From a virus, in IMG/VR virus record IMGVR_UViG_3300032265_002047, positions 1 to 31,760 of that record: a stretch of 31,760 nt of DNA; one strand, 5' to 3'. How positions within the stretch are numbered: the first letter of the stretch is position 1; each line of letters opens with the position of its first letter. Of this stretch, positions 7,594 to 25,316 are shown in pieces. The notes under the pieces were generated by a model. That model saw nothing but the letters and a program-made list of their open reading frames with translations, was not told the DNA's origin and ran no database searches. A program made the translations under genes and the position numbers.

Positions 7594-8475
7594 TTATAAT
7601 TTATATGATATATAATCTGCTATTAAATCAGCAACATTAACTTCACAATAAGTTTCAAATCCTTTAAAGCCGGGTGCTGAATTTGCTTCGCATACTCTAA
7701 ATCCTCTATCATCAAATAGTAAATCCACTCCTGCTATATGTAAGTTTAATACTCTTGCAGTTTCTCTTGCTATGAAATCAATCTCATCTGTCAATTCAAA
7801 TTTCTCACCTGTTCCACCATTAGTTATGTTTGCTCTAAAATCACCATCAGGTCCAATTCTTTTCATTGCCCCAATAACTTTACCACCAATAACTAATACT
7901 CTTAAATCTTCACCGGGTTTTAATCCTAAATATTCCTGAACGATTAAGGTTTTTGATGTTCCCAAACTTCTAATAAATTCCATCAACTTACTAAAGTCTC
8001 TCCTTTTTTCACAAAGATAAACTCCCTTACCATAACTTCCAGTTACTACTTTTACTACACAAGGGAATCCAATTCTATCTTTCACAATACTCTCATCAAC
8101 AGGGTATTTAACCACCATTGTATTTGGAATAGGAATGTTATGTTGTGAAAGTATTTGAGAAGCTTGTAACTTATCAGCAACTTTTTCAATTGGGTCTGCT
8201 GAATTAATACATAATACTCCTGCTTTTTCTAATTGTCTTAATAATGCTAACATAAAATCGTTAGTACCACTTCCAGTTCTTACTAATACAATTTTTGGCA
8301 ATTCAATAGTTTCACCATTATATAGAATACCTTCTGCAATATGTTTATCAACAATAATATCAAAATTATCAGGTTGAACTATTTTTGCAGTTATTCCTTT
8401 TTTTTCAAAGCTTTCCAACAATCTTTTGTTTTCAAATTCCGATTCAGTATGTTTAGAAAATACCCAAACTTGCAT
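7594..8475 (-). CDS. RimK-like ATP-grasp ligase
   Basis: A 293-residue ATP-grasp enzyme of the RimK family, close to the length of E. coli RimK (300). Visible are the pre-ATP-grasp region (1-95), the ATP-binding segment CVVKVVTGSYGKGV (139-152), IVQEYLG (178-184), GDFRANITNGG (211-221, as in the RimK GDFRSN loop), and the metal ligands D251, E263 and N265 in VDLLFDDRGFRVCEANSAPG. RimK adds glutamates to the C-terminus of ribosomal protein S6; relatives ligate amino acids to other peptides or cofactors. The substrate here cannot be read from sequence: host S6 or a phage protein are both possible. It has its own host-type promoter that overlaps the tmRNA terminator, and it heads the operon with the 81-residue and polymerase genes. 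Confidence 0.9.
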   Translation of the reverse strand: MQVWVFSKHTESEFENKRLLESFEKKGITAKIVQPDNFDIIVDKHIAEGILYNGETIELPKIVLVRTGSGTNDFMLALLRQLEKAGVLCINSADPIEKVADKLQASQILSQHNIPIPNTMVVKYPVDESIVKDRIGFPCVVKVVTGSYGKGVYLCEKRRDFSKLMEFIRSLGTSKTLIVQEYLGLKPGEDLRVLVIGGKVIGAMKRIGPDGDFRANITNGGTGEKFELTDEIDFIARETARVLNLHIAGVDLLFDDRGFRVCEANSAPGFKGFETYCEVNVADLIADYISYKL

Positions 8476-8536: not shown

Positions 8537-8541
8537 TGTTG

Positions 8542-8962
8542 TGGAGATGAAGGGACTCGAACCCTTGTCTTACAAAGTAATCATAATACCAGAGATTCAC
8601 ACGTTTAGGATAATGATTTAATCTTACAATCATTCCAAAAGAATTGGGGCCGTATGGCCTACCACCATTCGATTTTCTAGATGAGTTTATGGTGTGTTCG
8701 AATCACACCCTCATAACGGAGTCTCATTCTTCCTACTCGTCTATCCGTAGTGTCAGTTCACATTCTATTTAATTGTCCCATGATGTGTACGGGAGTAATT
8801 AGGCTGCTACAGCGTAATCAGCACCTACGAATGCCATAAGGTCATCGAAGGTCATAGTTGACATTTCGTCAGTTATTGTTTTGTACAGATTTAAAGAGGT
8901 CTAGCACATATCTCTACGTGTGGTACTACCATTCTCATTGCAATCAATTCCATGGCATCCCC
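8542..8962 (-). ncRNA. ssrA: Phage-encoded tmRNA (transfer-messenger RNA)
   Basis: The tRNA-like ends are clear. The 5' end GGGGATG (8956-8962) pairs over 7 bp with the 3' CATCTCC, with one G-U pair, followed by discriminator A; CCA is not encoded. The T-arm reads AAGGG-TTCGAGT-CCCTT. The 5' side continues with GGAATTGATTGCAATG, as in bacterial tmRNAs. The internal mRNA-like segment ends in a frame encoding ...GADYAVAA-stop, the expected hydrophobic proteolysis tag. The length of 421 nt is slightly longer than typical (~350-400). Terminator and promoter flank it. It would rescue ribosomes stalled on broken mRNA, which is plausible when the phage degrades host transcripts. It needs SmpB, which is not in this window and probably comes from the host. 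Phage-borne tmRNAs are known but uncommon. Confidence 0.92.
8799..8870 (-). other. tmRNA tag reading frame
   Basis: The frame ends GAT TAC GCT GTA GCA GCC TAA (DYAVAA-stop, TAA at 8799-8801). No in-frame stop occurs for at least 30 codons upstream. If the resume codon is GAC at 8868-8870, preceded by TAACT, the tag has 23 residues: it starts DEMSTM, runs through TFDDLMAFVG and ends ADYAVAA. Most bacterial tags have 8-15 residues, though mycoplasma tags can reach about 27. The exact resume codon is inferred. Confidence 0.65.
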
Positions 8963-14512: not shown

Positions 14513-16933
14513 TTAATGTGGTCCTCCTAATTGAAAAAAGTTTCTTGTTGTTTTTGAAACGCCTTGTGCTTGTACGGTATTTAATTTTTGTGAATCTACA
14601 TAAAAATTTGAATCTTTGTTCATTATAACATTTGCTACATTATCCATTCTACTTGCTAACATTGCCAAACCGTTTCCAATATTTCCACCAGCACCATTTG
14701 CTAAAGCGTTTGATAATCCTGGTCTAGCTATTATATCATCTGATTTATCAAATTGATATGCTTGTCCTTTTGCCATAAGTACTGGGGTATCATCTCCACT
14801 TGCTAATTCAAAATCATGTGCCTCAGTTGGGTTACTATTCATTGCAGAAACCAGTCCAGCAACTACACCACCAGCTAATGCTAACCCAATAATTCCACCA
14901 GTACTTGCCAACCCACCAAATATTTTTGCAACAGCTGCAGAAAACGCCGATTCTTTTTCAGCAACTGATAACGCTAATCCTCTTGTTTCTAATCCTAATG
15001 AACGAGCTTGCATTATTAATATATCCTGTTCTAATGCAGCTCGTATTGCAGTTTGTTTTGCAGCAATACTGGATTGTATTGCCATAGCTACAGCATAACC
15101 AGCGGCTATTCCCAATACAATTTTTACAGCGGTCATATGTTCCGCAAGGAAACCAAATATTTTACCCAAATCTTGCATTATTGGTAAAAACACACCCCCA
15201 ACTTGTACAGCTATTGCTTTAAATTGGTTTCCCATTTCCGTAACTTGGCCATTTACTTTATTTTGTGCTAAGAATACATCTGTTTGCTTTTTTAAATCGC
15301 CATCCTTTATTTTAGTCAAATCCAATCCTAATTCTTTGGCTTTCATTGCAGCTTCTCTTTCTTCTTTTGATAAATGTGATAATTTATTTCGAATTCCAAT
15401 CTCTCTATTAACTTGTTCAACACTCATACCAGCTGCTTCAGCCAATGCTTTTTGTGTAAAATAATTTTGTTTAGTAAAATCACCACTTCTTTGAATTTGA
15501 TTTAAAGTTTCTTCAGTAGCTTCGGCAAGTTTTCCTTCCATTGCCAATGCTCTAGCTCTATTCAAATTAAATTGACCACCTACAAATGTAGCCGCAGTTA
15601 ATTCACTTCCAATATTTTCTTCAAAATTTAAAAGATGTTCTGCAGTTTTTGCAAGGTCATCTAACGATACACCTAATTTTCTTGCTTCAATTGCTTGCTT
15701 TGTCAATAATTGTATATCTCCGTGGAAAAATTTAGAAGTAGTTTCTGCACTTTTTGCAATTTCTTCTAAAGTCTCTCGAGGTGATACTTTATTTGCAACT
15801 GCCAAATCAGTAACCTGTTGTTGAATACTCGCTGCAGTAGCTGCACTCAAATGTCCAACTTGTTCAAATATACCTTGAACTTTTGCAGCATTTTCAGCAG
15901 AAAGACCAGTTGCTTCAGTTACAGCAGTTAATGCTGTTAAAACTCCTTTATCCAAAGTAGCAGAAGTATCACTAAACACGTTTCCTAATTGGTTTGCAAC
16001 TTCTAATACTTTTGCAGAATCCAATCCCATTTGTCTGAATTCTTTTTCTATTTCATGGGCACTTTTACCAACTTCTTTCATCATATCTCTGGTCATACCA
16101 GTATCAATTCTGAATTTTTCAGCAGCTTTATCTAATTCTGAAAATACTTCCGCTGCGGCTCCTAATAATAAAAAAGGAAGTATATAAAAAGAAGCTTCTT
16201 TAATTGCTTTTCCAAATTTTTGAGCACCATCAACCATATTACCAAGTTCAGGTGGTAAATCGGCTTGCATATCGCTAAATGCTTCTTGTAATTTATTTAA
16301 CCTTTCTTGTGATTTTACCTGTTTTTCTTGGAATTGATAATTTTTTCTTAATAAATCTTGTTCTTCTTTTGAATATCCAACTATTTTCTTTTCAAATTCC
16401 AATCGTTTTATTAATCCTTCTGATAATTTAAATGTTTCTTTACTTGTTTCTTCAGCGGTTTCTAAAAATTCATCCTGTTGTTTGTAGTAAAGCGCAAGTA
16501 ATTCATTATTTTTTGCAAGCTCATCGTCTTTAAGTGTTAATCTATTTTTTTCTAATTCTTTAATTTTAAAAACAATATCAGCAAGAAATTGATTAGCTCC
16601 TTTTTGTGTAATAATTTGTGCTCTAGTTTTTATATCTAATCTTGAAAATAACTCATCTTCTTTTTTAAGATTATCATTCACTTCATCACCCAATTCAACT
16701 TCTGCTTTTTTATTTGCTTTTCTTTTTTCATTTTTAGCAATTCTTTTATCATCCAAATCTATTTGTTTTTGCAGCTCTTTGGTAATTTGTTTTTCAATTT
16801 CGATTTGTTCGCGCAGTTTTTTGGCATGCTTTTCATTCGAAATAGCCATTCTTTCATTAAGAACATCTATTCGTTTATTAGCTAATTCAATTTCTTTTAA
16901 TGTATCTAACCTTGTATCGTTTACAGCTGCCAT
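14513..16933 (-). CDS. Tail tape measure protein
   Basis: An 806-residue protein with a long N-terminal coiled coil (residues ~8-220, rich in Lys/Glu/Gln/Leu), then a region resembling the phage tape-measure minor-tail domain with hydrophobic segments (SFYILPFLLLGAAAEVF at ~245, and VKIVLGIAAGYAVAMAIQ and GGIIGLALAGGVVAGLVSAM near ~620-700), and mostly helical sequence between. Its position after the tail-chaperone pair and before baseplate genes is the canonical one. With the usual rule of about 1.5 angstrom of tail per residue, it predicts a tail near 120 nm, slightly longer than T4. The start ATG at 16933 lies 15 nt after the preceding gene, without its own promoter motif, so both are probably one transcript. 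Confidence 0.88.
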   Translation of the reverse strand: MAAVNDTRLDTLKEIELANKRIDVLNERMAISNEKHAKKLREQIEIEKQITKELQKQIDLDDKRIAKNEKRKANKKAEVELGDEVNDNLKKEDELFSRLDIKTRAQIITQKGANQFLADIVFKIKELEKNRLTLKDDELAKNNELLALYYKQQDEFLETAEETSKETFKLSEGLIKRLEFEKKIVGYSKEEQDLLRKNYQFQEKQVKSQERLNKLQEAFSDMQADLPPELGNMVDGAQKFGKAIKEASFYILPFLLLGAAAEVFSELDKAAEKFRIDTGMTRDMMKEVGKSAHEIEKEFRQMGLDSAKVLEVANQLGNVFSDTSATLDKGVLTALTAVTEATGLSAENAAKVQGIFEQVGHLSAATAASIQQQVTDLAVANKVSPRETLEEIAKSAETTSKFFHGDIQLLTKQAIEARKLGVSLDDLAKTAEHLLNFEENIGSELTAATFVGGQFNLNRARALAMEGKLAEATEETLNQIQRSGDFTKQNYFTQKALAEAAGMSVEQVNREIGIRNKLSHLSKEEREAAMKAKELGLDLTKIKDGDLKKQTDVFLAQNKVNGQVTEMGNQFKAIAVQVGGVFLPIMQDLGKIFGFLAEHMTAVKIVLGIAAGYAVAMAIQSSIAAKQTAIRAALEQDILIMQARSLGLETRGLALSVAEKESAFSAAVAKIFGGLASTGGIIGLALAGGVVAGLVSAMNSNPTEAHDFELASGDDTPVLMAKGQAYQFDKSDDIIARPGLSNALANGAGGNIGNGLAMLASRMDNVANVIMNKDSNFYVDSQKLNTVQAQGVSKTTRNFFQLGGPH

Positions 16934-16948
16934 ATATGAATACTAATA

Positions 16949-17197
16949 TTATACTTCTAAATCTTTATCAGAAATTAACCCAGATGCTACTAATTTTTTC
17001 CAAGTTTCTGGGTCTTTTTGTTTTGCTTTTTTTAAATAAGGTATATAAGATTTACCTATTTTTTCCATATCATTATCCAATTTTTTTAATACAGGATCTG
17101 TATTAATTACGTTTTGCAAAGATGTTGGTTTTTTTTTACCAAACCATCCCCAAAATTCATTAATCTTTTCTTCCGATAATTTATATCTTTTTGCCAT
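16949..17197 (-). CDS. Small Lys-rich protein before the tape measure, unknown function
   Basis: An 82-residue, basic, helical protein starting MAKRYKLSEEKINEFWGWFGKKK and ending LISDKDLEV. I chose ATG 17195-17197 over the upstream ATG at 17242. The longer version would read through the promoter motif at 17223-17232 and begin beside a terminator, and its extra 15 residues look like translated promoter DNA. The gene is 15 nt from the tape measure start. No known domain. Position suggests a tail-assembly or tape-measure-associated role. Confidence 0.75.
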   Translation of the reverse strand: MAKRYKLSEEKINEFWGWFGKKKPTSLQNVINTDPVLKKLDNDMEKIGKSYIPYLKKAKQKDPETWKKLVASGLISDKDLEV

Positions 17198-17222
17198 TTT
17201 ATATATGTTTACAATTATACTT

Positions 17223-17232
17223 CTATAAATAT
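17223..17232 (-). promoter_or_regulatory. Candidate late promoter of the tape measure operon
   Basis: Minus-strand ATATTTATAG is 25 nt upstream of the chosen ATG of the 82-residue protein. It lies 13 nt downstream of the hairpin terminator at 17245-17285, a clean terminator-promoter boundary. Confidence 0.55.
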
Positions 17233-17244
17233 CCATATACAAAA

Positions 17245-17285
17245 AAAGTTAGGATTTTGAGAAATTATCTCTTTATCCTAACTTT
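17245..17285 (-). terminator. Hairpin terminator overlapping the end of the tail chaperone gene
   Basis: Minus-strand arms AAAGTTAGGAT and ATCCTAACTTT (11 bp) enclose a smaller GAGA/TCTC helix, followed by a T-run (17241-17247). The 5' arm encodes the last residues of the 73-codon frame (SKVRIKR-stop). Confidence 0.82.
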
Positions 17286-17486
17286 AGATGGTGTAGAAGC
17301 TGTTTTTGTTTGTTCGTTTTCTTTCTTTTTAGCTTCTATTAATCTTTTATAATAAAATAATCTTAATTTTGTTGGCATTTTGTATAGTTCCATCATAGTA
17401 AATCCATTACCATAATTAACCATATCAAAAATTTGAGTGTGTAAATCTACACTATGATTCGGACTTAGGCCAAAAAAACCCCACAC
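17265..17486 (-). CDS. Tail assembly chaperone-like second frame (frameshift extension)
   Basis: A 73-codon frame in the +1 frame relative to the 252-residue gene, overlapping it by 35 nt. It opens just after an in-frame TAG, and its only start near the beginning is GTG at 17484-17486. The protein contains DLHTQIFDMVNYGNGFTMME and YKMPTKLRLFYYKRLIEA, helical and charged, ending KVRIKR. This size, overlap and position between tail tube and tape measure match the short downstream part of phage tail-assembly-chaperone pairs (lambda G/GT, P2 E/E'), which are made by programmed frameshifting. Either independent GTG initiation or frameshifting would express it; I favour frameshifting at the T7 run, giving a ~314-residue fusion. 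Confidence 0.7.
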   Translation of the reverse strand: MWGFFGLSPNHSVDLHTQIFDMVNYGNGFTMMELYKMPTKLRLFYYKRLIEAKKKENEQTKTASTPSKVRIKR

Positions 17487-18210
17487 CTAAAGTGATAAGA
17501 GCCTCCTCTATCTCTCCATCCGCATGTTGGTAATTAAATTTCATATCCATATCTGGTGATATTTTTCTAGCATAATCTCTCAATGCTTTACTATCTCTAG
17601 CTAACATATTATTTACATATTTGTTAATACTTGCTAAATCAGTTTTACCATCCACAGATTTAATCATATATCTTAAACGAGTTGTAATATCAGATGAACT
17701 ATCTTTGTTTAATTTTTCCAAAGCAGCTATATCTTTATCAATTAATTTTTCATCACCATGTGTTAATAACTTAAATGTTAATTTTGTACCAGATGGTGTT
17801 GTAAATTCAAATTCATTTTTATTTTTAAATAATGAAAAATCTATTTCTTTTGTTTGTATTTTAGATAAATCAACACTTCCTTCTATGGTTGTTTTTGCAT
17901 AGTTTGAATAAAATTCAAAATTATAATCAGGACCATATCCTAATAAACGAGTTGCTAAGATAATTGCGTTTTTATCACCATTAATAATATCATCAACATT
18001 TATATTATCTACAATGATTGATTCAAATAACTTATCTAACACTACACCCTTTTTAATAAGGTTTGAAGATGATAAGATATCTTCTTCTTTTGCAGTCATT
18101 AATTTAATTGTAATCTGACCTGATGATAATGGATGTTCTTTAGGATAAACTAATCCTTTTGATGGTAGGTCTAATACTTCTACCGGAAAATCGTATTCTT
18201 TTTGTGTCAT
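17452..18210 (-). CDS. T4 baseplate-hub/tail assembly chaperone-like protein
   Basis: A 252-residue protein with the N-terminal signature EVLDLPSKGLVYPKEHPLSSG and IKLMTAKEEDILSSSNLIKKG, which I recognise as the T4_baseplate family (T4 gp26/gp51-type; Pfam PF12322 from memory) widespread in T4-like phages. It lies directly after the tail tube and before the tape measure, the slot held by tail assembly chaperones in other tailed phages. The last codons GGG TTT TTT TGG overlap the 73-codon frame at a slippery run. It has a promoter-like GTATTTATA 21 nt upstream of the ATG and no Shine-Dalgarno site. The family match and position both support a role in building the tail around the tape measure. 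Confidence 0.78.
   Translation of the reverse strand: MTQKEYDFPVEVLDLPSKGLVYPKEHPLSSGQITIKLMTAKEEDILSSSNLIKKGVVLDKLFESIIVDNINVDDIINGDKNAIILATRLLGYGPDYNFEFYSNYAKTTIEGSVDLSKIQTKEIDFSLFKNKNEFEFTTPSGTKLTFKLLTHGDEKLIDKDIAALEKLNKDSSSDITTRLRYMIKSVDGKTDLASINKYVNNMLARDSKALRDYARKISPDMDMKFNYQHADGEIEEALITLGVGFFWPKSES
17472..17478 (-). other. Candidate programmed frameshift site (T7 run)
   Basis: The minus strand reads GTG GGG TTT TTT TGG in the 252-residue frame. A +1 slip (or -2) on TTTTTTT puts ribosomes into GGC CTA AGT, the frame of the 73-codon extension, within the 35-nt overlap before the zero-frame TAG. RNA polymerase slippage on the same run is an alternative mechanism. Confidence 0.55.
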
Positions 18211-18310: not shown

Positions 18311-18799
18311 TTAGTATTCTAAGATAGCGTAATCGTAAGTTAGAGTTAAAGTAATCATAGCTGGGTCATTTGAACTGAAGTCTAATTCACCAAATTGAGC
18401 TTGGTTAATATATGCTCCTTTAATTTTCCATTGTTCAACTTTATCACCTACTGGTCCTAATAGATACAAATCGATATCTTTTTTATAGAAATCTGCGTAT
18501 CCATCTCTACCAGTGATTGATTCGTGTGATAATCTCACCCACTCCATTACTGATTGTGCCGCTGATGGAACAATTGGGTCATAAAGAGTTATTTGGATAT
18601 CTTGCCATTCACCTTTACCTTTCAATTGTCTTTTTACGTTGATATGGTCTAAAGTTACCTTTTCAAATTGAATTGAAGGTCTATTAGCTGTTTTAACCAT
18701 ATAACCAGGTACACCATCCCATTCCATGATGAAACGATTTTTCATCTTTGGTTCGAAGTTCGTATAGAACATTTTATCAAACTCTAATATTTCTGCCAT
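18311..18799 (-). CDS. Tail tube protein (T4 gp19-like)
   Basis: A 162-residue protein, almost exactly the length of T4 gp19 (163). It has the N-terminal pattern YTNFEPKMKNRFIMEWDGVP followed by FEKVTLDHINVKRQLKGKGEWQ and a C-terminal ITLTLTYDYAILEY, typical of T4-type tube subunits that stack as hexamers inside the sheath. It follows the sheath gene and precedes the chaperone pair. It has its own promoter-like motif 23 nt upstream, a Shine-Dalgarno AGGAA 6 nt before the ATG, and a strong terminator after the stop, consistent with separate high-level expression of a major virion protein. Confidence 0.9.
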   Translation of the reverse strand: MAEILEFDKMFYTNFEPKMKNRFIMEWDGVPGYMVKTANRPSIQFEKVTLDHINVKRQLKGKGEWQDIQITLYDPIVPSAAQSVMEWVRLSHESITGRDGYADFYKKDIDLYLLGPVGDKVEQWKIKGAYINQAQFGELDFSSNDPAMITLTLTYDYAILEY

Positions 18800-18852: not shown

Positions 18853-21171
18853 TTATGCTGAGAAACTTGCTCCAGTTGGTAAGATGTTGAAATCAATTAC
18901 GATGAATTCAGCAGTCTTAGCAGGTTGTAAGTAAATTGCTCCAGCTAATATGTTTCTATCAATCACATCAGGTGTATTGTTTGATTCATCCATTACAACT
19001 CTGAATGCGTATAAACCTTGTCTTTGTTGGATTGCCTCTAAATAAGGGTTTACAGTATTCAAGAACTTCTGACGAGTTGTTGATGTATTTTGTTCGAACA
19101 CTAAGTAACGAGATGTAGATGCAATGAATTTTTTCATAGTGATAAGTAATCTTCTCACATTGATTCTATCCAATGCAGATGCTTTATCTTGTAAAGTCTT
19201 TTGTCCAAATGCTACAATACCTTGACCAGGGAAAGTTGCGATTGGGTTTACTTTGTTTTCATATAAAGTATCTCTTTCAGCGTGTGTTAATCTATTTAAT
19301 ACACTTACTGCTCCGGTAATACCACCTCTATTTAAACCAGCAGGTGCAAACCATTCAGCCGCCAATCTATCGTTACTTGCAAATACAGCAGGTAATAAAG
19401 TTGAAGGTGGAACAGAAGTTAATTTATTTGTATTAGTATCAATTGTTTTAACCCAAGGATAGTAAGTAGCTACATAGTTAGAATCTACAGCATTTGCTTG
19501 TTCAGTTGCATCGGTGATTAAATCATCAATTGCGTTAAAATCAGCAATGTAGAATGCATCTTGTCTACTTTCAACCATATCAATTACAGCAGTAGTTACC
19601 GCTGGATGTAAACTTCTTACAATACCAGGAGTTGCTACTAAGTTAATATCCCATTCATCAGGATTTGATACAGCGTTAATTGCTTGTGTGTATGCTAATG
19701 TACCAGTAGATGTTCCAGTTGAACAGTTAAATCCTTGTGTGTTAGCTGCACTAATATCCATTCCTTTGTTAATTGGAGTTGTTGGATTCATACCATCATA
19801 TCCTTGTTGGAATGCCAATACAAATTGTCTTTTAACCATATCAGCTGCCGATGAACCAGTCATTACATAGTTCAATTGAGAATCAAAAGCAAATGGTACA
19901 TTCGAACCAGTTTCTGCGTTTTGTGGTATAGCTTTAAGATAGTTTGTGTTATCAGTTGCAGTGAAATCAAATCCACTATAATAAATTGGAGATGATGAAG
20001 TATTACCGATTGAGTTAGTTTGGTAAGCTACTGCAGGTATTTGTTTTGCTAAAGTACCATCACCACAATAAACTGGGTTTGTGTATTCGCCATGTCCGAA
20101 TGGAGCTGCTGAAATTGGATAAGAACCCGGTCCAGCTAAATCTTCATTATTCATTACTTCAACTCTGATATATGCTGATTTATTTGAGTAATCACCATGT
20201 TCAGTTATTTTACCATTTGAATCAATAGTAATATATCTATCACCAATTTTTCTAGCAATATAGTTTGGAGAAGCAGGGTCTAAGTTTACATTGTTAAATG
20301 TTTCATATACAACTTTTCTCTTATCATTATCAGCGTATCCTCTAATAGTTACAGTAAATACTGAATAATCAGTTGCACCATCTTCACCAGCTGCCTTTAC
20401 ATTTGAAATAGCAATTTTAAATTTAGTATTATAAACATCACCATGTCCTAAAGTTACAAACTTAAATAAGTTATATCTTTGACCACTTATTAATTGTGAT
20501 TGAACTACTGGAGTTTCAGCTGCATAATAACCATATGTATAATCTTGTGTAGGTAATACAGTTCCAGTTACTACAATATCTTCGTTAACTGAACCAGTGT
20601 AGTTTCCTGCAATATTCTTAAAGTAGTTATATGCGTATGCTTTCTTAGAACCAAATGGGAATTGACCAAATACATCATTTAAATCATTTGTATCTGATGA
20701 TAAAATCGATGCTGATGTGAATATACCAGATGCAGATAAAAAGAATGAACCATCTTTTGATTTATCGGTTACAATAGTTGCTCCGGTAAAACCATAGTTT
20801 TGATATCCTTTATCGGTATTATATAATACACCGATTAATTTTGTTCCTAAACTTGCATTAGTAGAACCACTAGCAAAGATACCTAAAGGTGCTACTTGTG
20901 TGTAACCACCAGTTCCAGCTACTCTTACGATTGTTGCTGTTCCAGCTTCTGCTAAATAGTTTTGTACTGCATATTCAGTATAATAAGTTCCATCAGGTGT
21001 TCCGAAAATATTTTCGAACTCTGATTGTGTTCTCACAATAGTTGGAACAAATGCAGGTCCTTGTTTAAAAGGTCCTATAAATGCTGCTCCGATTTCTCCT
21101 ATTCCTTGTTGTAAGAATGATAGGTCATTTTCTCTTGTGAATACGCCAGGTGATACGATTCTTTCTGCCAT
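18853..21171 (-). CDS. Tail sheath protein (T4 gp18-like)
   Basis: A 772-residue contractile sheath subunit (T4 gp18 has 659). The N-terminus AERIVSPGVFTRENDLSFL and IGAAFIGPFKQGPAFVPTIV is highly characteristic of T4-type sheaths. The C-terminal domain (INVRRLLITMKKFIASTSRYLVFEQN, AIQQRQGLYAFRVVMDESNN, YLQPAKTAEFIVIDFNI) is the conserved handshake region that links neighbouring subunits. The middle (~130-480) is a variable, probably surface-exposed beta-rich insertion rich in Thr, Ser, Asn and Gly, which explains the extra length. It has a GGAGA site 6 nt before ATG, a 58-nt distance to the promoter-like motif, and an upstream hairpin. It proves that the tail is contractile. Confidence 0.96.
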   Translation of the reverse strand: MAERIVSPGVFTRENDLSFLQQGIGEIGAAFIGPFKQGPAFVPTIVRTQSEFENIFGTPDGTYYTEYAVQNYLAEAGTATIVRVAGTGGYTQVAPLGIFASGSTNASLGTKLIGVLYNTDKGYQNYGFTGATIVTDKSKDGSFFLSASGIFTSASILSSDTNDLNDVFGQFPFGSKKAYAYNYFKNIAGNYTGSVNEDIVVTGTVLPTQDYTYGYYAAETPVVQSQLISGQRYNLFKFVTLGHGDVYNTKFKIAISNVKAAGEDGATDYSVFTVTIRGYADNDKRKVVYETFNNVNLDPASPNYIARKIGDRYITIDSNGKITEHGDYSNKSAYIRVEVMNNEDLAGPGSYPISAAPFGHGEYTNPVYCGDGTLAKQIPAVAYQTNSIGNTSSSPIYYSGFDFTATDNTNYLKAIPQNAETGSNVPFAFDSQLNYVMTGSSAADMVKRQFVLAFQQGYDGMNPTTPINKGMDISAANTQGFNCSTGTSTGTLAYTQAINAVSNPDEWDINLVATPGIVRSLHPAVTTAVIDMVESRQDAFYIADFNAIDDLITDATEQANAVDSNYVATYYPWVKTIDTNTNKLTSVPPSTLLPAVFASNDRLAAEWFAPAGLNRGGITGAVSVLNRLTHAERDTLYENKVNPIATFPGQGIVAFGQKTLQDKASALDRINVRRLLITMKKFIASTSRYLVFEQNTSTTRQKFLNTVNPYLEAIQQRQGLYAFRVVMDESNNTPDVIDRNILAGAIYLQPAKTAEFIVIDFNILPTGASFSA

Positions 21172-21754: not shown

Positions 21755-23266
21755 TTAAATTTTTCCATTTTTAATATCATTTATAAATTCATTGTGTGTA
21801 TAAAATATATCAGGTACATCACTGTAAAGGTTTCTCATATCTTTGTACATACTTTCCAAATTTACTTTTAAGTTAGCATTTTTTATAGTATCATCGACCA
21901 CTTCTTCTGATATGAGACCTAATCCTGCTAATAACCAGCTCCACACACCCCATCCACTAGCCGATACAATACCCGAAAAATCTTTAAATGCAGGTACTCG
22001 ATTTTTACATAATTCTAAAACTTCTTTATTTCTATCTGTTATTTCTAAATCATATTTTATGTATTTCCAAAACTCACTATCTTCTCTACGGGTCATATAA
22101 TGAATTTGAATAAGGTCTTTATAATCATCTATTGTTTCTGCAAAGTTTTTATTAAAAAGATTTCTATTATAATCGGTTAATGTTTTTTCTTTTGAATAAT
22201 GTAAATACGATGAACAAAATTGTTCTAATGCACTACAAGTATTATGAATCGATGTTGCTTCTAATGGTTCTAAAAAATGTGAACTTAATCCTACTGCAAA
22301 TACATTGCCTATCCATGCTTTATCACATCTACCTGGATTGAATGCAATGATTCTAAACTTATCTATTTTTCTACCAGTAATTTCTTGCAATTCTTTATAT
22401 GCTTGCTCATCTGATATAAATTTATCCGAGTACACATATCCACACCCATATCGTTCTTTGGTAGGAATTTGCCACATCCAACCATTTGGTAATGCTAATG
22501 CTAAAGTTTCAGGTACTATTGTTTCATTTGGTTCATATTGCCAAAAATAAGTAAGTGCTTTATTAACAGGTAACCATTTTGAATAATCAACCCATTCGGC
22601 TCCCATAGGACCTATAAGTGCTTTACTAAATCCGGTACAGTCAAACCACATATCAGCTGTAATTATTTCGCCCGTTTCTTTTAATTCTATACTTTTTAAT
22701 TCACCATTTTTTATCACCAAATTATAAACTTCCGAATCTATATGTTTAACACCATTTTGTAAAGCAACTTCTTTAAAATATTCACCAACTTTATATGCGT
22801 CAAAATGATATGAATAAGAAGCTTTTGGTTGCCCATCCCCTCTATATACAAATGGAATTTTATTTTGTTTCCATAAATGCATACAAGCCGATGAATCGGT
22901 TGCTATACCATATTTTAAAGCAATAATATAATCTAAATCTAAACTGTCTAAATATGTTTTTTGAGGTCCTAATGGTTCATAAAAAGATTCATCTTCGCCA
23001 TGCCAATTCTTACAATGAATACCCATTTTTATAGTTGAATTGGTTTTTTTGTGAAATTCTTTTAAAGAAAGGCCTTTAATATTTTTTAATCTATTTTTTA
23101 AAGTATCAACAAAACTACCAGTCGAACCTTCACCAGCTCCTATAATTCCTAATTTAGAACTATCAATAACGGTAATGTCATGCAAAACATTATCCGATGT
23201 TCTATTAGCTAAATATAATGCAGATAACCATCCTGCAGTACCACCACCTACTATAACAATTTTCAT
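21755..23266 (-). CDS. Flavin-dependent (tryptophan-type) halogenase 2
   Basis: A 503-residue FADH2-dependent halogenase. Visible are the FAD motif VGGGTAGW (6-13), the second flavin loop GAGEGSTG (43-50), the catalytic lysine K80 in STIKMGIHCKNW (equivalent to PrnA K79), the halogenase signature WMWQIP (263-268; WxWxIP) and FLEPLEATSI with E336 (equivalent to PrnA E346). These enzymes make HOX from halide, flavin hydroperoxide and oxygen and pass it along a tunnel to the lysine. Related genes occur in marine myophages; the cyanophage Syn10 enzyme VirX1 has been characterised as an iodide-preferring halogenase. No flavin reductase is present here, so host FADH2 supply is implied. It is 4 nt from the second halogenase gene. 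The natural substrate is unknown. Confidence 0.93.
   Translation of the reverse strand: MKIVIVGGGTAGWLSALYLANRTSDNVLHDITVIDSSKLGIIGAGEGSTGSFVDTLKNRLKNIKGLSLKEFHKKTNSTIKMGIHCKNWHGEDESFYEPLGPQKTYLDSLDLDYIIALKYGIATDSSACMHLWKQNKIPFVYRGDGQPKASYSYHFDAYKVGEYFKEVALQNGVKHIDSEVYNLVIKNGELKSIELKETGEIITADMWFDCTGFSKALIGPMGAEWVDYSKWLPVNKALTYFWQYEPNETIVPETLALALPNGWMWQIPTKERYGCGYVYSDKFISDEQAYKELQEITGRKIDKFRIIAFNPGRCDKAWIGNVFAVGLSSHFLEPLEATSIHNTCSALEQFCSSYLHYSKEKTLTDYNRNLFNKNFAETIDDYKDLIQIHYMTRREDSEFWKYIKYDLEITDRNKEVLELCKNRVPAFKDFSGIVSASGWGVWSWLLAGLGLISEEVVDDTIKNANLKVNLESMYKDMRNLYSDVPDIFYTHNEFINDIKNGKI
22540..22594 (-). repeat. 55-bp perfect repeat, copy in halogenase 2
   Basis: This 55-bp block is identical to 24578-24632 in the other halogenase. 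It encodes WVDYSKWLPVNKALTYFW. The flanks differ at once. Confidence 0.9.
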
Positions 23267-23271
23267 ATTTT
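23241..23271 (-). repeat. 31-bp perfect repeat at halogenase 2 start
   Basis: Identical to 25291-25321. It covers the first nine codons (MKIVIVGGG) and 5 nt upstream of the ATG. Confidence 0.88.
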
Positions 23272-25316
23272 TAACTTTCGATAAATACAGTTAATGTCAT
23301 TCTACCATCATTTATATCATTACCAAATAAATCAGCCGGAGCATGTAATATATCTGATGGATACAATACAAATCTATTATAAATGTTTTCTGCTAACTTA
23401 GTTTCTTTCATATCATCCGAACTAAGTAAAGTACCACCATTAGGGTCAGCGTTTGGAGTTAAATAAACTATACCAGCCCAATTAGAAAGGTCTTTATGAA
23501 ATCTAATTTCTTCAAAAGAAGGATAACATTCTGTTTTTGTTTTTTCTAAAGCATAATGAAAATGTAAAGATAAAAATTTACCTGCCAATTTTGGATTTAA
23601 TTGAGAAATTTTCTTATACATATAATTTACAAGTTCAGGATATTCTTCCATTGTAATTTCTCCTCTAAATCCTTTCCAACCAGCACCAGCTACTTCCTGA
23701 TGTGATTTAAATTTATGTTTTAATGCTAACTCTCTGATTGCATCTGGTTGGTCAAAAAAATCATCTTTAATTATTAAACCTTCAAATGGATTATTACTTG
23801 TTTTTCTTTGTATTTGTTCTAAAAATTCATTATGAGACCAATATTTTTTCATATCTTTCACATAATAAGTGTACAATTTATTCCAAGCTTCATCAGAACC
23901 AGTATTTAATCCATGATTCCACAATGTATCCGCACACACTCTTTTTGTAAGATGTCCTAATCCACTTAATATAAAACTAGTAACAGCCCATCCACCAGAA
24001 CCAAAATGATTATCAAAATCTTTATAATTTGGGCTCCTGTATTTACATATATCAATTACATCAATTACATTTTGTAATTTAGGTACTTCATTTTTGTAAT
24101 ATTTCCAAAACTCACTATCTTCTCTTTTTGTCATATAATGGTGTTGAATTAATTCTCTATATGAATCAATCATATTTGCAACAACTTTATTATATTTTTT
24201 TATAGCAGTTGGATATAAAGTTTTTTCAATTTCAGCATCCAAATAAAAATTAGAAAATAAATCAAGCTGAACTATTGTTGAATGTATTGAAGTTGCTTCC
24301 AATGGTTCTAAAAAATGAGAACTTAGTCCTACAGCTATTACATTATTTTTCCAAACATTTTCTACCCTACCGGCATTAAATTCTATAATTCTATTTGGTT
24401 TTATTTTTCTTCCTGTAATGTTTTCTAATTCGTTTTGAGCTTCTTCATCGGTTATAAATTTATCAGAATAAACATAACCACATCCGTATCTTTCTTGAGT
24501 AGGTATCTGCCACATCCAACCATTAGGCATTGCCCATGCTAAAGTTTGTGGTTTTATTTCTTCATCTTTTTCATAAGGCCAAAAATAAGTAAGTGCTTTA
24601 TTAACAGGTAACCATTTTGAATAATCAACCCAACCACCATCAACAGCATTTATTAATTTTCTACTAAATCCAGTACAATCAAACCAAAGGTCTGCTATAA
24701 TTGTTTCATTTGATTCTAGTAAATCAACACCTTCTATATTACCAGTATTTGGATTTACATCAATTTCACCTACTTCCGAATCAATATATTTAACACCATT
24801 TTTAAGAGCTACTTCTTTAAAATATTGACCAACTTTGTGAGCATCAAAATGATATGAATATCCGCCTGTTGGATTAAAATTAATTGAATAAAAAGGAACT
24901 TTATTATTTTCCCACATAGGTCCAGTTGGTGATGCTAAATAAGATTCACCATATGCTGTTGCTAAAAGGAAATCAATATCAGCGCTTTCAACAAATGTTT
25001 GAGTTGGTTGTAATGGTTCAAAAAATGATTTTCCATCCCCATTCCAATCTTTACAATTAATTCCTAATTTTATAGTTGCACCCGTTTTTTCTGCAAATTC
25101 TCTTTCGGATAAACCTTCTAATCTTTTTAATTTTTTATTTAAAAGTTCAAGCAAAATACCTGTTGAACCTTCACCTGCACCAATAATAGGAATTTTAGAA
25201 CTTTCTATTACAGTAATATCATATGGAATAACTCCATCAAATCTTTTATTACGATTTGCCAAAAATAAAGAGGCTAACCACCCCGCAGTTCCACCACCTA
25301 CTATAACAATTTTCAT
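23271..25316 (-). CDS. Flavin-dependent halogenase fused to a 2OG-Fe(II) oxygenase-like domain
   Basis: A 681-residue two-domain enzyme. Residues 1-~510 are a halogenase parallel to the downstream gene: VGGGTAGW (6-13), GAGEGSTG (46-53), K83 in ATIKLGINCKDW, WMWQIP (267-272) and E340 in FLEPLEATSI. Residues ~510-681 look like a DUF6445/prolyl-hydroxylase-type 2OG-Fe(II) oxygenase: FHKDLSNWAGIVYLTP gives the HxD iron ligands H607 and D609, LYPSDILHAPADLFG gives the distal H658, and NDGRMTLTVFIE gives R672 for 2-oxoglutarate. The HxD Asp argues for hydroxylation, because 2OG halogenases have Gly or Ala there. It sits between the fibre proteins and the second halogenase, in one operon. A joint hydroxylation and halogenation of one substrate is inference. 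Confidence 0.88.
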   Translation of the reverse strand: MKIVIVGGGTAGWLASLFLANRNKRFDGVIPYDITVIESSKIPIIGAGEGSTGILLELLNKKLKRLEGLSEREFAEKTGATIKLGINCKDWNGDGKSFFEPLQPTQTFVESADIDFLLATAYGESYLASPTGPMWENNKVPFYSINFNPTGGYSYHFDAHKVGQYFKEVALKNGVKYIDSEVGEIDVNPNTGNIEGVDLLESNETIIADLWFDCTGFSRKLINAVDGGWVDYSKWLPVNKALTYFWPYEKDEEIKPQTLAWAMPNGWMWQIPTQERYGCGYVYSDKFITDEEAQNELENITGRKIKPNRIIEFNAGRVENVWKNNVIAVGLSSHFLEPLEATSIHSTIVQLDLFSNFYLDAEIEKTLYPTAIKKYNKVVANMIDSYRELIQHHYMTKREDSEFWKYYKNEVPKLQNVIDVIDICKYRSPNYKDFDNHFGSGGWAVTSFILSGLGHLTKRVCADTLWNHGLNTGSDEAWNKLYTYYVKDMKKYWSHNEFLEQIQRKTSNNPFEGLIIKDDFFDQPDAIRELALKHKFKSHQEVAGAGWKGFRGEITMEEYPELVNYMYKKISQLNPKLAGKFLSLHFHYALEKTKTECYPSFEEIRFHKDLSNWAGIVYLTPNADPNGGTLLSSDDMKETKLAENIYNRFVLYPSDILHAPADLFGNDINDGRMTLTVFIES
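24578..24632 (-). repeat. 55-bp perfect repeat, copy in halogenase-oxygenase gene
   Basis: Identical to 22540-22594, although the two genes otherwise differ at many positions. It points to recent duplication, gene conversion or very strong constraint. Confidence 0.9.

Follow-up and report, generated by a model that had tools for sequence, protein, structure and literature searches.

A probable +1 ribosomal frameshift in the tail assembly chaperone gene of a T4-related phage lineage

The function of tail assembly chaperones of the lambda G/GT type has been described, and the same review calls the G-T frameshift conserved, "except T4" (PMC5009743). Among long-tailed phages, T4 has been listed as the exception to this chaperone frameshift. 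This work concerns the virus record IMGVR_UViG_3300032265_002047 (IMG/VR), which is covered from end to end; the whole stretch of 31,760 nucleotides (nt) is referred to below as the window, and all its coordinates are given for the minus strand unless stated otherwise. In this record, the gene of a T4 gp26-type protein (gene A) overlaps a second reading frame that encodes an additional C-terminal domain (C-domain). The arrangement of the two frames and its conservation indicate that a large T4-related lineage uses a chaperone frameshift as well, in the +1 direction. On the basis of sequence comparison, we estimate the probability that the long chaperone is made by +1 programmed ribosomal frameshifting at roughly 88%.

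Frameshifted tail chaperones are a known kind of system, while the +1 variant in a T4-related lineage and the GGAGG element that accompanies it are new here. No description of either was found in the literature searched; a 2022 paper on T4-like chaperones (Vladimirov et al., Virology 566:9-15) lies outside that search. This paper, the title of which argues for a non-frameshift mechanism, is cited in PMC12846349, where the same reference also serves as the source for poly-T -1 signals in T4-like phages. For this reason, a -1 variant may already have been described. The initial annotation of the window knew of no described frameshift in the T4 gp26/gp51-like family, which is roughly right given that the review excepts T4, although the 2022 paper may mention part of it.

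Gene A (17452..18210) encodes 252 residues and, from its matches to phrog_150 and PF12322 and from its predicted fold, is a probable short tail assembly chaperone (TAC-N) of the T4 gp26 type. The +1-frame open reading frame (ORF) of 73 codons (17265..17486), which codes for the C-terminal extension, is supported by a homologous +1 ORF in relatives, coding-type substitutions, and a profile match; the C-domain proper occupies 17268..17477. The region of overlap (17452..17489) is bounded by the TAG that closes off the +1 frame on its 5' side (17489..17487) and the TAG that ends the 0-frame (17454..17452), and the +1 frame begins directly 3' of the former, sharing 35 nt (17486..17452) with gene A. 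Within this region, the 0-frame reads GGT GTG GGG TTT TTT TGG CCT AAG TCC GAA TCA TAG and the second frame, which is +1, reads GGT TTT TTT GGC CTA. The presumed shift site is a run of seven T residues (17472..17478), read as TTT TTT T(GG) in the 0-frame and as TTT followed by GGC in the +1 frame. Skipping one base here yields a fusion of 314 residues. The 13-mer GGGGTTTTTTTGG occurs once in the window, with 0.01 occurrences expected, and the overlap of frames is genuine, its conservation being far beyond chance. Re-reading of the sequence reproduced the coordinates, the 35-nt overlap, the GGG TTT TTT T motif, the TAG that opens the second frame, and the 314-residue product as first reported. 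The accompanying statement that the second frame lacks an ATG is true upstream of and through the site and fails inside the domain, where in-frame ATG codons occur (IFDM, MMELY).

The conservation of this arrangement was assessed in 43 close and 80 more distant loci; 124 loci were scored and sorted into 63 groups at 80% identity. Members of the family are as little as about 50% identical in metagenomes and less than 30% identical in isolates, and more than 590 relatives are found among the matches listed in one collection. Whether homologues keep the T-run and the overlap had been proposed as a check, and the shift site is indeed retained inside a +1 overlap in 124/124 loci and 63/63 groups. 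A homologous +1 C-domain ORF is present in every untruncated locus of the clade, and substitution frequencies in this domain, counted by +1 codon position, are 0.25/0.15/0.46, the pattern of a sequence that is selected for the protein it encodes in this frame. At the site itself, the last two Phe codons are TTT in 60/61 and 57/57 cases, and the Pro codon is CCT in 60/61, compared with CCT fractions of 0.18-0.43 in other conserved Pro columns. Such nearly frozen synonymous positions are what dual coding requires.

The sequence of the shift site varies within narrow limits. Among the 63 groups, TTT TTT TGG CCT is found in 34, TTT TTT TAC CCT in 19, TTT CTT TGG CCT in four, and TTT TTT TAT CCT in two, with TTT TTT TGG CCA, TTC TTT TAC, AAC TTT CTA, and TTC TTT CGT in a single group each; a further clade (L217-L231) has TTC TTT TGG. 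The codon pair is TTT TTT, TTT CTT, or TTC TTT in 62/63 groups, the exception being AAC TTT C, and in 61/63 groups UUU or CUU is followed by T, making the +1 codon UUU. The rule common to all is UUU followed by a pyrimidine: a tRNA-Phe that moves forward by one base can then pair again, with UUU or UUC. The codon in the aminoacyl (A) site is TGG, TAC, TAT, CTA, or CGT, and never a stop.

This variation bears directly on transcriptional slippage, in which RNA polymerase would stutter on the T7 run and produce messenger RNAs that lose one U or gain two, thereby joining the frames. A seven-T run is the commonest site and the longest run in 116/124 loci, as slippage would have it. The arrangement persists, however, where the longest run is only three or four T residues, as in TTT CTT TGG (four groups), TTC TTT TAC, AAC TTT CTA, and TTC TTT CGT, and it is also kept in the TTC TTT TGG clade. 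Longer runs, which would slip more readily, are nearly absent, with eight T residues in one locus. Because sites without a homopolymer exist, we regard slippage as unlikely.

Another explanation is independent initiation or termination-reinitiation, in which the C-domain would be a separate small protein started from GTG, TTG, or an internal ATG with the aid of GGAGG. The window does carry an in-frame GTG where the +1 frame opens, with GGAGG upstream, and cyanophages, KVP40, L226, and L232 carry the C-domain with its own ATG. On the other hand, 25/63 groups have no ATG, GTG, or TTG in the stretch that leads from the stop of the +1 frame to the shift codon, and 21 of the 63 lack even a near-cognate start there; in 17/63, no more than 6 nt of open +1 frame precede the second shift codon. 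The GGAGG lies 15 nt from the GTG of the window, which is too far, and the distance between the element and possible starts varies among relatives. The beginning of the domain, FF[GT]L...[NH/DY], is conserved, though a start at an internal ATG would skip this part. Separate genes with ordinary starts, named at the outset as the observation that would speak against a frameshift, occur only in the more distant loci L226, L232, and L049, where the ATG stands in another frame; L226 lacks the shift site altogether. Near the immuto group, L226 and L232 thus provide a natural contrast to the +1 overlap, with the C-domain as a separate gene. Since start codons are missing in so many groups, independent initiation appears improbable.

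Ribosomal frameshifting by -2 is known in the tail genes of Mu-type phages; it would arrive in the same frame as +1 and add one extra residue. The initial annotation had favored +1 while allowing for -2, and this preference holds, as the homopolymer-free sites TTT CTT TGG, AAC TTT CTA, and TTC TTT CGT permit no -2 re-pairing, while +1 re-pairing of tRNA-Phe on UUU-Y is possible in every group. We therefore consider a -2 shift very improbable. A sequencing or assembly error that splits one real gene, to which homopolymers are prone, can be set aside as next to impossible, because the same T7 occurs in a 99%-identical contig from a different sample (L002), in more than 100 loci, and in complete isolate genomes, and because the 0-frame stop is always retained a few codons downstream of the site.

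In the proposed +1 mechanism, most ribosomes would translate the gp26-type gene as far as its stop, producing the short chaperone of 252 residues. A fraction would slip forward by one base on a Phe UUU codon that precedes a pyrimidine (UUU UUU U in the window), with the peptidyl-tRNA-Phe re-pairing with UUU, or with UUC in some relatives. Continued reading in the +1 frame would add a helical domain of 68 residues and give a minor product, the long chaperone of 314 residues (TAC-NC). If the two forms behave like lambda G and GT, the short one would cover the tape measure protein, and subunits of the tail tube would be brought in by the added domain; both forms would thus presumably act as tail chaperones. 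The sequences directly show the overlap and its conservation, coding selection on the two frames, missing start codons, an invariant shift site, and homology to T4 gp26 and short gp51; that the shift occurs, how often, at which of the two YUU codons, and with what function for the products is inferred. The junction peptide predicted for SP-15 is ...INSEFFTPDSTTK, and that of immuto would be ...GVSFLGLTPEYR if the shift takes place at CUU and ...GVSFFGLTPEYR if it takes place at the preceding UUU.

The protein family places gene A and its fusion beside two known T4 proteins. Gene A matches phrog_150 ("baseplate hub") with E=1.1e-7 and PF12322 (T4_baseplate) with E=2.4e-4, which is below the cut-off for the latter family; its relatives L047, L048, and L049 pass PF12322. 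Both T4 gp26 and T4 gp51 match the same two families. Along the 282 positions of the phrog_150 profile, T4 gp26 ends at 235 and T4 gp51 at 280; gene A, like its relatives, stops where gp26 does (about 235), while the alignment of the in silico fusions of L046 and L047 extends to 273-274. From these end points, gene A is the equivalent of gp26, and the predicted frameshift product that of gp51. In profile-profile comparison, the C-domain matches the short gp51 proteins of cyanophages, KVP40, and T4 with E=1.2e-5 (probability 81) and E=1.9e-7 (probability 94). Independently, the gp51 proteins of cyanophage and vibriophage have been reported to lack the first 200 residues (Sullivan et al. 2010, PMC3037559), which fits a gene consisting of the C-domain only.

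Gene A and the C-domain were folded as two separate AlphaFold models, with predicted local distance difference test scores (pLDDT) of 90.4 and 84, respectively, the latter being all helical. Foldseek gave no match for the C-domain, and a sequence search of the PDB gave nothing for either protein. The best Foldseek rows for gene A were serpins, which were rejected as structural relatives since E 0.1 is at the level of chance. When the C-domain alone was used in tblastn against phage records, immuto was the sole match, and a weak one.

Several observations weigh against +1 frameshifting between gp26-type and gp51-type frames. The in-frame GTG of the window, absent in many relatives, has been mentioned above. 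The A-site codons UGG and UAC are neither rare nor stops and so give no reason for a ribosomal pause at the site. A search for downstream RNA structure gave no strong signal (mean z -0.6 to -1.3 against mononucleotide shuffles); Rfam, for its part, contains no RNA family that matches the shift site. The C-terminus of T4 gp51 taken alone matches the C-domain with E=0.047 only. The top PDB match of the gene A model (VIA-align), the HK97 gp13 tail assembly chaperone 2OB9, has a Z of 4.5 over 86 residues at 3.8 Å, and Foldseek gives a probability of 0.47 and E 0.78; the structural match is weak, yet it is to the protein expected for a chaperone.

Upstream of the shift codon lies a Shine-Dalgarno (SD)-like GGAGG (17502..17506), which is present near the site in 54/63 groups. 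Counted from the second shift codon, its position is -34..-30 in most groups and -31..-27 in the window, leaving 29 nt and 26 nt, respectively, before the second TTT. The Glu codon within the element is GAG in 52/54 groups, compared with fractions of 0.05-0.45 in other conserved Glu columns, and the third base before it is a G in 45/57, although the codons there specify various amino acids, compared with 9% in the gene body. By these biases at synonymous positions, selection on GGAGG acts at the nucleotide level. Initiation in these phages makes no use of SD sites, which precede 0/20 starts of window genes, 0/63 gene A starts, and 4/237 ORF starts, as against 54/63 shift sites. Initiation at an Ile codon 8 nt behind GGAGG (AUC, AUU, or AUA, with ACU in the window) was considered and rejected, as that frame gives a short peptide.

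SD effects on frameshifting operate at 3 nt in prfB and about 10 nt in dnaX, and the distance from GGAGG to the shift codon is too long for these known effects. A hairpin between GGAGG and the site (ATCCC..GGGAT) with at least four pairs is possible in 29/61 groups, and one free pair shows a slight excess (34 versus 27, p 0.018); such a hairpin would shorten the distance, but with signals this weak it is not proposed here. We tentatively suggest that GGAGG might be a new kind of +1 frameshift stimulator, acting through an anti-Shine-Dalgarno or other ribosome contact about 26-29 nt upstream and serving recoding instead of initiation, although this reading is less likely than not.

The +1 arrangement is also found in cultured phages, namely Flavobacterium phage immuto, Microcystis phage Mel-JY01, Bacillus phage SP-15, Listeria phage LIS04, and Streptococcus phage GXN1. 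In most of these isolates, the C-domain is unannotated or appears as a truncated hypothetical protein: in immuto and SP-15 it is annotated as a gene truncated by an internal start, in Mel-JY01 as an overlapping hypothetical gene, and in LIS04 not at all. Public annotations of the C-domain cover 5854-5964 in L045, 5749-5985 in L046, and 4821-4940 in L131. In KVP40, cyanophage Bellamy, Atu_ph07, and 80 cyanophage-type contigs, the C-domain lies in the -1 frame instead. The cyanophage-type contigs have an invariant T TTT TTC (80/80), with an ATG usually 5 or 14 nt past the stop. In cyanophage-type gp26 genes (L136-L215, L134, L135), the gp51-like domain is open in the -1 frame, and in a few loci, L204 among them, the first ATG comes as late as 53 nt past the stop. 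Because these few have no ATG near the stop, -1 frameshifting may operate in some cyanophage-type loci, too.

The gene pair had been placed between tail tube and tape measure, and the order of genes agrees with this: sheath, tube, gene A, C-domain, a small ORF, and a gene resembling a tape measure gene. The tail sheath protein (18853..21171; PF17482/PF04984; phrog_23, E=4.5e-72) is followed by the gp19-like tail tube protein (18311..18799; PF06841, E=1.6e-11; phrog_4542, E=1.3e-31), the upstream neighbor of gene A. The downstream neighbor (14513..16933, 806 residues) is a probable tape measure protein by position only, so called because the genes that immuto and LIS04 have in this position carry a tape measure annotation; searches of family profiles and phrogs gave no family match for it. 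A small ORF of 97 codons from TTG (16949-17242) separates the C-domain from this gene, and Mel-JY01 and LR756508 also have small ORFs between the C-domain and the tape measure place. Elsewhere on the same strand, the window contains a transfer-messenger RNA (tmRNA) gene (8541-8962; Rfam RF00023, 78 bits; ARAGORN tag DEMSTMTFDDLMAFVGADYAVAA), adjoined by a gene for a RimK-like protein (7594-8475; phrog_2599, ribosomal protein S6 glutaminyl transferase, 9e-32). Two neighboring tryptophan-halogenase-like genes (21755-23266 and 23271-25316, minus strand; PF04820, 4e-92; phrog_2928, 2e-102) lie within the virion gene region, and the second has an additional C-terminal part that matches phrog_1644 and phrog_274.

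These observations correct the annotation of a domain that is unannotated or hypothetical in the genomes concerned, and named isolates, SP-15 on Bacillus subtilis and immuto on Flavobacterium, offer test systems. The conserved GGAGG amid genes without SD initiation poses a specific, testable question about the stimulation of +1 shifting. Should GGAGG prove to be a stimulator, and with the same Phe-Phe site apparently used for -1 in cyanophages, the direction of frameshifting would have switched within one chaperone family.

Compared with known recoding systems, the locus shares with lambda G/GT and P2 E/E' a gene between tube and tape measure, a short protein with a frameshifted long form (predicted here), and a slippery site shortly before the first frame ends. 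In those systems the shift is -1 on XXXYYYZ heptamers, whereas here it would be +1 on UUU-Y, and the short protein of the window belongs to the gp26 family and has 252 residues. T4 gp26/gp51 (PF12322, phrog_150) and the corresponding proteins of Kyanoviridae and KVP40 are of the same protein family; gene A is the counterpart of gp26, and the C-domain that of the C-terminal part of gp51, for which cyanophages and KVP40 have a short gene that follows gp26. T4 has two separate paralogous genes, corresponding to the short form and to the long form with the same C-domain, whereas the window has one gene and an overlapping +1 frame; cyanophage-type loci differ in having the domain in the -1 frame behind T TTT TTC, usually with an ATG near the stop. 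In the haloarchaeal myovirus HSTV-2, too, a tail assembly gene is predicted to shift by +1, its chaperone shift being "very likely +1" (PMC5009743); it differs in being an archaeal virus. The prfB (RF2) site is similar in having Y-U-U followed by U, +1 re-pairing of the tRNA in the peptidyl site, and an SD-like sequence upstream, but it has a stop codon in the A-site and the SD 3 nt from the shift codon, while the window family has a sense codon and GGAGG 26-29 nt upstream. In influenza A PA-X (UCC UUU CGU), tRNA-Phe moves by +1 from UUU to UUC on eukaryotic ribosomes; the likeness to TTC TTT CGT of GXN1 and AAC TTT CTA of L047 is a resemblance of sites only.
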